Positions 12,213 through 41,636 of a DNA stretch of 50,348 bases are shown here, piece by piece. The position numbers and the translations under genes are program-made. The first letter of the stretch is position 1; each line of letters opens with the position of its first letter. Source of the DNA: an uncultured Acidobacteriota bacterium (GTDB taxonomy: Bacteria > Acidobacteriota > Terriglobia > Terriglobales > Acidobacteriaceae); contig CAINND010000116.1 of assembly GCA_903851035.1 (NCBI GenBank), forward strand, positions 1-50,348, in the 5' to 3' direction. The notes under the pieces are model-generated. The model saw nothing but the letters and a program-made list of their open reading frames with translations. It was not told the origin of the DNA and made no database searches.

Positions 12213-12342
12213 GGCGGTCTTCTTCCATCCGGACTTTCACCGTCGGCCCCGGAGTTACACCGGATCTGCTGACCCTGCTTACGCAGGCGCTCGCGGGCTT
12301 TCACCGCCGGTGGGGAGTTACACCCCGCCCTGAAGACGTACG
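12213..12342 (-). promoter_or_regulatory. FMN riboswitch (RFN element)
   Basis: The minus-strand sequence matches the conserved RFN core: TTCAGGGCGGGGTGTAACTC, then CCCACCGGCGGTGAAAGCCC, a variable arm, CCGGTGTAACTCCGGGGCCG, and ACGGTGAAAGTCCGGATGG. The ends GTCTTC and GAAGAC close helix P1. It lies about 100 bases upstream of ribB in the ribBA leader. FMN binding should shut down riboflavin gene expression. Confidence 0.95.
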
Positions 12343-35183: not shown

Positions 35184-35260
35184 TGGTGCGCCCGGCGAGA
35201 TTCGAACTCACGACCTAACGCTTCGGAGGCGTTCGCTCTATCCAGCTGAGCTACGGGCGC
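35184..35260 (-). tRNA. tRNA-Arg (anticodon CCG)
   Basis: Complete 77-nt cloverleaf on the minus strand. Acceptor arms GCGCCCG and CGGGCGC, D stem GCTC/GAGC, anticodon stem AACGC/GCGTT with loop CTCCGAA (anticodon CCG, reads CGG), T stem GTGAG/CTCGC with loop TTCGAAT, and an encoded CCA end. Confidence 0.97.
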
Positions 35261-40032: not shown

Positions 40033-40384
40033 TCGAGCCTCTCGGCAGAGAGAATGCTGGCGCCACAGTGGGCCAGGCACGGGAAGTGTATCGCATTGTA
40101 ACCGCCACCAGGGTGCCATCCTGGCGATGACGGAAGCGCGAGTCTCCGCGACAAGTGCATTAGAATCTTACAGGAACAAGCGGGAAAGACGGGAAATTCT
40201 GTTTTAAGCAAAGGTCAAATTCCGGCGTGCGGACGATTTATTAAAAAATATTTCGGAGCTAGCGATAGAATATGTCTCCGAATGGGTTCATATGAACGCA
40301 TTCACTGCGGCAACCGGGTTCCGCAAGGTATTGCGGGGTGCGGCGAACCGATGATGCATAAACTATTTCAGGAGATCCAGTACC
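40033..40384. other. Intergenic region before the cytochrome cluster
   Basis: 352 bases without a gene. It turns AT-rich around 40235-40275. A TAGAAT -10-like hexamer is at 40266-40271, but no matching -35 is seen at normal spacing. The ribosome site AGGAG at 40370-40374 belongs to the first cytochrome. Confidence 0.5.
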
Positions 40385-40648
40385 ATGAAGCGTTTTACGA
40401 TTGTTCTGGCTGCACTGGCGATGATGATGTCCACGGCTGCGTTTGCGGAAGACGGCGCCGCTCTTTACAGCGCGAAGTGCGCGATGTGCCATGGCGCCGA
40501 CGGCGCCGGCAAGATGGCCCCGAAGATCAAGGGCAGCACGAAGGTGACGGATGTGCTGACCAAGGGCGGATTGAAGGGCAAGCATGCTGCTCCGTTCGCC
40601 GGCCTTTCCGCGGACCAGGTTGCCGCGATTGCCGCGTTCTTGAAGTAA
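40385..40648 (+). CDS. Small periplasmic monoheme cytochrome c (1 of 3)
   Basis: 87-aa protein: signal peptide 1-21 (cleavage after AFA), then a 66-residue class-I-like cytochrome. Heme site Cys32-x2-Cys35-His36 (KCAMCHG). Distal side: instead of a Met-Pro, the chain has GKHAAPFAGL with His67; the only Met after the heme site is Met44, too close to be a typical distal ligand. The C-terminus ends AFLK. It is the first of three tandem paralogues, each followed by its own terminator. Role: periplasmic electron carrier; partners unknown. Confidence 0.92.
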   Translation: MKRFTIVLAALAMMMSTAAFAEDGAALYSAKCAMCHGADGAGKMAPKIKGSTKVTDVLTKGGLKGKHAAPFAGLSADQVAAIAAFLK

Positions 40649-40674
40649 ATCAAATCCGGTTGCTACGGCGACCA

Positions 40675-40700
40675 GCCGGTGCCCGCGGGCACCGGCTTTT
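40675..40700 (+). terminator. Terminator after cytochrome 1
   Basis: GCCGGTGCCC and GGGCACCGGC (40675-40696) form a near-continuous perfect palindrome followed by TTTT. Confidence 0.85.
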
Positions 40701-40768
40701 CCGTTTTTCACGGCGCCCGATGTACATGACTCACAATTGATGTGTGCGCTCCGTCACAGTGGAATTGC

Positions 40769-40797
40769 TTGGCAAAATCAGCCGCATCAGGCAGAAT
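40769..40797 (+). promoter_or_regulatory. Promoter of cytochrome 2
   Basis: TTGGCA (40769-40774), 17-base spacer, CAGAAT (40792-40797). The same hexamers and spacing stand before cytochrome 3 at 41241-41269. Confidence 0.6.
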
Positions 40798-40838
40798 GCA
40801 AGGGCAACTTTAATTTCCCTACAGGAGCATTTTTTCTC

Positions 40839-41099
40839 ATGAAGCGTTTTATGTTTGCTGCGATTGCATTGGTGATGATGACCTCGATGGCGTTGGCCGC
40901 TGACGGTGGCGCCCTGTACAAGGCGAAGTGCGCCGGTTGCCATGGCGCCGCGGGCGAAGGCAAGGGCACGAATCCTGCCGTGAAGGGCAAGACCACCGTG
41001 GTTGACGTTCTGACCAAGGGCGGCAAGAAGGGCATCCACGCCAAGCCGTTCGCGGTGAGCGCGGAAGAGGCTGCTGCCATCGCCACGTTCCTGAAGTAG
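40839..41099 (+). CDS. Small periplasmic monoheme cytochrome c (2 of 3)
   Basis: 86-aa paralogue of the first cytochrome. Signal peptide 1-20 (ends ALA), heme site Cys31-x2-Cys34-His35 (KCAGCHG). The mature part contains no Met at all, so methionine cannot be the distal ligand; His67 in KGIHAKPF occupies the same place as in the other two copies, with about 32 residues between the heme His and this His. ATG at 40839 is chosen as start, with CAGGAG upstream; the frame opens earlier (40737) without a signal-peptide-like beginning. It has its own promoter and terminator. Confidence 0.92.
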   Translation: MKRFMFAAIALVMMTSMALAADGGALYKAKCAGCHGAAGEGKGTNPAVKGKTTVVDVLTKGGKKGIHAKPFAVSAEEAAAIATFLK

Positions 41100-41120
41100 T
41101 ATTCAGTTCGGTTAGGGATT

Positions 41121-41150
41121 GGGCCGGTGCTTTCGGGCATCGGCCCTTTT
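41121..41150 (+). terminator. Terminator after cytochrome 2
   Basis: GGGCCGGTGC (41121-41130) pairs with GCATCGGCCC (41137-41146) with one wobble and a six-base loop, followed by TTTT. Confidence 0.85.
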
Positions 41151-41240
41151 CTTTGCGCAACGTCTTCTTTGTGCAACGTCCCCATGATTACTTAGCGGCC
41201 CAACCTGAAAAAATTCCCCGGCGGGTGCCGAGGCGGAAAC

Positions 41241-41269
41241 TTGGCAAAGCGCCGCGGCGGTGGCAGAAT
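41241..41269 (+). promoter_or_regulatory. Promoter of cytochrome 3
   Basis: TTGGCA (41241-41246), 17-base spacer, CAGAAT (41264-41269). Hexamers are identical to those before cytochrome 2 while the spacers differ in sequence. Confidence 0.6.
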
Positions 41270-41306
41270 ACAGCCGCTTTAAAAAGGCTCACTAGGAGAG
41301 CCCGTT

Positions 41307-41573
41307 ATGAAACGTACAGCCATGATTCTTACTACCCTGGCGCTGCTGGCCGCCAACTGCCTGGCAGCGGAAAACGGGGCGAAGGCCTACCAGCAATACT
41401 GCGCCAAGTGCCACGGCAAGACCGGCGACGGCAAGATGGGACCGGTCATCCGCGGCCGCTCGGACATTCCAGAGATCATTCTGCGGGGCGGACTGAAGAA
41501 GTCTCCGCACTCGCGTCCGATTGCCGGAGTCACCGAGGAGGAGGCGCGGGCAATTGCCCGGTTCCTGAAGTAG
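41307..41573 (+). CDS. Small periplasmic monoheme cytochrome c (3 of 3)
   Basis: 88-aa paralogue. Signal peptide 1-21, heme site Cys32-x2-Cys35-His36 (YCAKCHG), and His68 in KSPHSRPIAG aligned with the His of the other two. Met44 lies in GKMGP near the heme motif as in copy 1. Divergence from copies 1 and 2 is larger (IPEIILRGGLKK in place of VTDVLTKGG). ATG after AGGAGAGCCCGTT. It is followed by its own terminator, so the three genes probably make separate transcripts. Confidence 0.92.
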   Translation: MKRTAMILTTLALLAANCLAAENGAKAYQQYCAKCHGKTGDGKMGPVIRGRSDIPEIILRGGLKKSPHSRPIAGVTEEEARAIARFLK

Positions 41574-41604
41574 ATACAGCCATAGACTGCAAGCCAGGCG
41601 GAAG

Positions 41605-41636
41605 GCCGGTGCCACAAGCGCCGGCTTTTGCTTTTT
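41605..41636 (+). terminator. Terminator after cytochrome 3
   Basis: GCCGGTGC (41605-41612) pairs with GCGCCGGC (41618-41625) with one wobble, followed by a T-rich tail (TTTTGCTTTTT). Confidence 0.85.

Follow-up and report, generated by a model that had tools for sequence, protein, structure and literature searches.

Three tandem, very small monoheme cytochromes c with a histidine in the distal methionine position in an uncultured Acidobacteriota bacterium: candidate bis-His electron carriers

A contig of an uncultured bacterium of the Acidobacteriaceae (assembly GCA_903851035.1, contig CAINND010000116.1, positions 1 to 50,348; this whole stretch of 50,348 nucleotides is hereafter the window), from a genome of 3.26 Mb that is 98.9% complete, carries three tandem genes for very small monoheme cytochromes c, each of which has a His in the alignment column of the distal Met. 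Our reading, which we hold at a probability of roughly 0.75, is that the products are small, basic, secreted monoheme carriers of class I fold with a bis-His heme, and that they represent a tandem expansion under separate promoters. The conserved distal His would take the place of the axial Met and produce a low-spin bis-His heme, the copies would act as soluble periplasmic one-electron carriers, and all three would belong to an Acidobacterial family whose distal ligand is Met or His. The tandem expansion would have been kept under separate promoters, with an element of its own and a possible operator before copy 1 and a second type of promoter before copies 2 and 3.

The genes are arranged head to tail on the + strand and encode products of 87, 86, and 88 aa, each with one CxxCH motif and an N-terminal signal peptide that was assigned by eye. 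Copy 1 (40385..40648, +; PF13442, E 5.1e-11) has its heme-binding CAMCH at residues 32-36 (40478..40492, +), and the codon of its proposed distal axial ligand, His67, is at 40583..40585 (+). The heme-binding CAGCH of copy 2 (40839..41099, +; PF13442, E 2.6e-10) occupies residues 31-35 (40929..40943, +) and its His67 is encoded at 41037..41039 (+), while copy 3 (41307..41573, +; PF13442, E 4.8e-10) has CAKCH at residues 32-36 (41400..41414, +) and His68 at 41508..41510 (+). All three His codons were checked, and the residues, which lie in KHAAPF, IHAKPF, and PHSRPI, were placed by their alignment column; they follow the heme His by 31, 32, and 32 residues, respectively. When the mature start is counted ten residues before CxxCH, the mature parts measure 66, 66, and 67 aa and have a calculated pI of 9.3-9.8. 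A previous sequence-only reading of this locus had described three tandem monoheme cytochromes c of 86-88 aa with signal peptides, the three His residues at a spacing of 31-32, and a mature copy 2 devoid of Met, all of which is borne out by the gene coordinates, translations, and codons. Its remark that the sole Met of copies 1 and 3 lies close to the heme motif is correct as to location and undercounts copy 1 by one: after the signal peptide, copy 1 has two, Met34 (inside CAMCH) and Met44, and copy 3 has Met44.

Separate terminators had also been proposed, and a terminator-like hairpin with a T tract was indeed found 3′ of each gene (40674..40697 after copy 1, 41121..41146 after copy 2, and 41601..41629 after copy 3, all +). 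The hairpin scan as a whole was not above chance, with four found against 3.0 ± 1.9 expected in shuffles, and what favors the three hairpins is that one follows each stop codon. Of two Rfam matches in the window, neither was at the cytochrome array; one is an FMN riboswitch (RF00050, 112.6 bits, 12213-12341, −).

Upstream of copy 1, alignment identified the element GATAGAAT (40264..40271, +), a possible −10 that is conserved in loci L003 and L004 of two relatives, followed by GGTTCATATGAACGC (40285..40299, +), which has the inner palindrome GTTCATATGAAC and is conserved in L004 and differs by a single base in L003. What copy 1 shares with the corresponding copies of L003 and L004 is GCGATAGAAT and then GGTTCATAtGAACGC, with A for the t in L003. 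Copies 2 and 3 are preceded instead by the promoter-like TTGGCA-17-CAGAAT (40769..40797 and 41241..41269, both +), recognized from sequence and alignment; the pattern CTTGGCA-17-CARAAT stands upstream of copies 2 and 3, two L003 copies, and one L004 copy, where the spacer is 18. These elements support separate transcription of the copies, with copy 1 putatively under different control, and GGTTCATATGAACGC is possibly the operator of a regulator. A genome scan with the copy 1 element at up to one mismatch returned a single site, at copy 1, and the exact copy 2 promoter pattern likewise had one site in the whole genome, at copy 2, the copy 3 site being missed too; a shared regulon is thus unsupported.

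The genes adjoining the array encode an AMP-ligase/acyltransferase, which also adjoins the array in L003 and L004, and a membrane H+-pyrophosphatase (PF03030, 41757-44516, +) directly downstream, which is beside the array in L004 too. Across the 24 loci compared, the only neighbors to recur were the AMP-ligase/acyltransferase gene in L003 and L004 and, in L004, those for the pyrophosphatase and M20, none with a redox link, and no gene partner conserved beyond close relatives was found among them. Elsewhere in the window, two adjacent tyrosine-recombinase-family genes (PF00589, PF02899; 35355-37216, +) lie beside a tRNA-Arg at 35184-35260.

All three products pass the Pfam cut-offs of PF13442 Cytochrome_CBB3 (40.0-43.2 bits vs 27) and PF00034 Cytochrom_C (27.2-41.1 bits vs 21.3), and none reaches the cut-off of any NCBIfam cytochrome model listed (c550, c551, c6 PetJ, and others; best 30.8 bits vs 125). 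An AlphaFold2 model of copy 1, computed from 32 His-type rows, has a class I-like fold with a mean pLDDT of 84.2 (81 to 93 in ten-residue blocks from residue 21). Its VIA-align matches include a cytochrome cc subunit (7e1w, Z 8.1), cytochrome c554 (2zzs, Z 8.0, rmsd 2.4 over 65 residues), and c546/556 (8yts, Z 8.0, rmsd 2.3 over 66 residues), and 8yts is also the best phmmer match of copy 1 in the PDB (E 9.9e-6). The model of a Met-type homologue, used as a control, scored higher than copy 1 (Z 10-12.7, with cytochromes c6 and anammox cytochromes, vs at most 8.1), and a Foldseek search of the PDB with the copy 1 model gave no match at E ≤ 0.001 (best 0.077). Since the Z values are middling and Foldseek is without a significant match, the class I fold leans on Pfam and on the match of the His-type profile to CcoP (3mk7, E 3.4e-12), its best in the PDB. 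TAL-effector repeats, the top PDB matches of a homologue with KKATHAF, were discarded as chance matches summed over repeats. All three copies combine a CxxCH near the N-terminus with a class I fold, the latter by prediction only; the distal Met of class I His/Met cytochromes is absent from all three, which have His in the Met column, and the copies are therefore not classed as His/Met cytochromes.

The case for bis-His ligation rests chiefly on this distal column, which was obtained by unguided alignment in two samples that overlap in source genomes and so are not independent. In the first, drawn from the best 80 loci, 115 matches were reduced to 96 rows after removal of identical rows and rows longer than 95 residues, with heme motifs taken only from reading frames under 350 aa; the distal column held 64 Met, 32 His, and nothing else. 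For the second, 100 genomes of the window's family were searched by profile at E ≤ 1e-8, and 59 of them have a match; one place with an internal stop (G073:C255) was left out, as were nine rows longer than 90 residues among the 123 distinct ones, and five of the 114 aligned rows end before the distal column. The remaining 109 rows have 66 Met and 43 His there and again nothing else, a ratio that is no census as the 17-row search profile was of His-type only; by a count of tree labels, 34 of the 100 genomes contribute His rows. With His at 2.3% and Met at 3.2% in the background, a column that is His or Met in 96/96 rows (best 80 loci) and 109/109 rows rules out a chance His. The HMMER alignment of the His-row profile to CcoP places the His over a Met in both domains of that diheme oxidase subunit (AAMPAW and GQMPAQ), and this aligned Met we take to be the heme ligand of CcoP. 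Among the candidate ligands, none but the heme-motif residues and the distal His is invariant in the 43 His rows. The distal residue follows the heme His by 29-47 residues in the His rows and by 37-45 in the Met rows, so that the window copies, at 31-32, are at the short end, and the His-x-x-Pro column that had been singled out for a homologue alignment is not conserved in the wider family. Bis-His ligation, as the sequence-only reading had proposed, is well supported by the sequence: the His falls unguided into the distal Met column as its only substitute there, and because it stands in for the axial Met in a column that is Met or His only, it quite probably is the second axial ligand.

Among known proteins, the window copies belong by their distal His with the bis-His monoheme class I cytochromes, a functional kind and not a sequence family. 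Domain III of PgcA of Geobacter sulfurreducens has 68 residues (444-511) and one heme with His459/His491 at a spacing of 32 (PMC11520253; PDB 8QK0), and the copies resemble it in spacing (31, 32, and 32) and size (about 66-67 aa). PgcA is a single extracellular chain of three heme domains joined by (PT)x linkers, whereas the window proteins are free-standing and single-domain, and the match to domain III is weak: phmmer aligned residues 8-66 of copy 1 at E 0.013, ending just before His67, Foldseek gave the copy 1 model a probability of 0.87 at E 0.19, the kinship is not significant, and domain III is not among the 50 VIA-align matches listed. MtoD of Sideroxydans lithotrophicus (4XXL) is likewise a free-standing monoheme class-1 cytochrome in which bis-His replaces His/Met, and differs in being larger (11 kDa) and encoded by one gene of the mto cluster; its absence from the matches listed by the phmmer, profile, Foldseek, and VIA-align searches excludes nothing. 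The description of the copies as unusually small is true, and they are matched by the PgcA domains, of 61-68 residues (PMC11520253), and by cytochrome c-553 of Bacillus pasteurii (1C75), a minimal class I cytochrome of 71 aa. The copy 1 model aligns with 1C75 at Z 7.0 and rmsd 2.3 over 62 residues, and phmmer matched copy 1 weakly to the same protein (1b7v, E 0.02). The distal ligand of this cytochrome is presumably Met. Top-ranked titles and abstract openings, with few subscription journals among them, yielded no description of bis-His monoheme cytochromes of Acidobacteria, a weak negative.

Among the matches listed, the nearest named homologues were from Acidobacteria MAGs, two of which share a neighboring gene at 78-82% protein identity. 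The array itself is kept in two relatives, with three copies in L003 and two in L004 (57-82% identity to copy 1); the proteins of L093 are the same as those of L004, and copy 3 groups with L003c (98/95). Both His-type and Met-type versions of the scaffold sometimes occur within one genome. Of 297 sampled genomes of the phylum, seven gave matches at E ≤ 1e-14, five from the window's family (including the window's own genome) and two from another family. Among these seven, G075 (L112) has a Met-type protein. The two genomes of the other family contain the loci L122, L123, and L125, which encode small His-type cytochromes with KTIHGKP, KTIHADP, and KTVHETP. A tree built on 69 columns after removal of the distal loop needs four Met/His changes, of which the starred branches force two; in an AU test that dropped one long row (L174), a single His clade was not rejected (p 0.83), the constrained tree being 34 log units better. 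Several independent Met-to-His switches are hence unsupported, given that a single His clade passes the test on these 69 columns.

A different reading of the same column is that the distal His is off the iron, that the heme is five-coordinate or ligated by Lys or water, and that the proteins serve to sense or scavenge peroxide or small ligands. In its favor, a Lys three columns before the distal His is found in 36/43 His rows and 0/66 Met rows and is invariant in the 17-row His-type search profile; of the three commonest Lys columns of the His rows (38, 37, and 36 of 43), it alone lies in the distal loop, and it might act as an alternative or a switching ligand. In the window copies, whose distal loop is short (31-32 vs 37-45 in Met rows), the iron could also be left five-coordinate, and a solved cytochrome of the same fold has, by its title, an odd sixth ligand (5xdh, His/DOPA). 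Against this, the His is present in 43/43 His-type rows, its place coincides exactly with that of the Met, and no Lys column is invariant, so that we regard a non-ligand His as quite unlikely. Two further residues were rejected as ligands. Eight residues after the heme His, where Met44 lies, is on the proximal side in class I folds; Met44 was rejected because of this position, and moreover it is missing from copy 2, and a Met right after that GK occurs in only 8/32 His-type rows of the first sample (best 80 loci). The same proximal-side argument removes Lys43, which is present in all 32 His rows of the first sample (best 80 loci) and in 37/43 His and 10/66 Met rows of the second.

If the heme is bis-His-ligated, the electron partners of the carriers may be sought on either of two sides. 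The sequence-only reading had concluded that bis-His ligation implies a low redox potential, a step that characterized proteins do not support: the class-1 cytochrome MtoD is bis-His at +155 mV (PMC4412085), whereas PmcA of the same bacterium, for which NMR indicates Met as distal ligand and which has an EPR g of 2.98, has about −143 mV at pH 7 (PMC13390432, where MtoD is called the only bis-His protein among the periplasmic monohemes compared), and PgcA, with His/Met in domains I and II and bis-His in domain III, has domain Em values between −48 and −106 mV, both kinds in one range (PMC11520253). Because the ligand set does not order the potentials of MtoD, PmcA, and PgcA, no potential is to be inferred for the window proteins, and the idea that the three copies are tuned to different potentials is speculation. 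High-potential bis-His carriers resembling MtoD, feeding a heme-copper oxidase and not a low-potential acceptor, are a real possibility, if one short of probable. MtoD has been proposed to feed a terminal oxidase (PMC13390432). The genome has one COX1 match; subunit II of the heme-copper oxidase includes a cytochrome c domain, and the NrfD/Fer4/cytochrome cluster upstream of this oxidase can be read as alternative complex III. On the other hand, PgcA domain III, nearer to the copies in size and spacing, is among the domains at −48 to −106 mV (PMC11520253), and a potential cannot be read from sequence.

We entertain with similar tentativeness the possibility that the copies are low-potential carriers of extracellular electron transfer, resembling PgcA domain III and operating between a CbcL-like quinol oxidase and multiheme or mineral acceptors. 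Their size and spacing are close to those of this domain, which alone binds akageneite (PMC11520253). The genome of the window has several multiheme cytochromes as further possible partners, and it encodes a Met-type paralogue (G000:C28:8552, L086) with 46% identity to copy 1 and the same family and heme motif, which differs from the array proteins in having GKM at the distal column and in adjoining multiheme genes: in L214:4053-7993 (G000:C28:8552-12493), directly after it come an ORF with b561 plus 11 hemes and a 14-heme ORF reaching the end of the contig. The former resembles in layout CbcL, described as a b-type membrane domain with nine hemes c (PMC9129911). A second cluster (L218:1174-15190, G000:C25) comprises a 16-heme ORF, an NHL-repeat protein, two 4-heme ORFs, and an 11-heme ORF, together with two large ORFs without a Pfam match at E ≤ 1e-5, and is possibly an extracellular electron transfer locus. 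However, multiheme genes adjoin the Met-type paralogue and not the His-type array, whose neighbors are those described above. The His-type copies are likely soluble carriers between such oxidase or multiheme complexes. We doubt the more elaborate scheme in which the family offers a natural series of Met/His ligand swaps on a single minimal cytochrome scaffold and, in this genome, the swap directs electrons either to an aerobic or to an extracellular branch, with three separately regulated bis-His copies serving different partners and the Met-type cousin serving the CbcL-like quinol oxidase.

To our knowledge, studies of how the axial ligand affects the potential of cytochromes have mostly relied on engineered variants and on a handful of isolated natural proteins; the structure of one engineered variant, Nostoc c6 M58H, was among the VIA-align matches listed. 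If our reading of small bis-His carriers is true, a swap known from few single proteins would run through a whole family. Dozens of natural His-type and Met-type versions of a single scaffold, small enough for NMR, are at hand. For annotation, the array also cautions against reading a five-coordinate heme from the absence of a distal Met, or a low potential from a bis-His heme.
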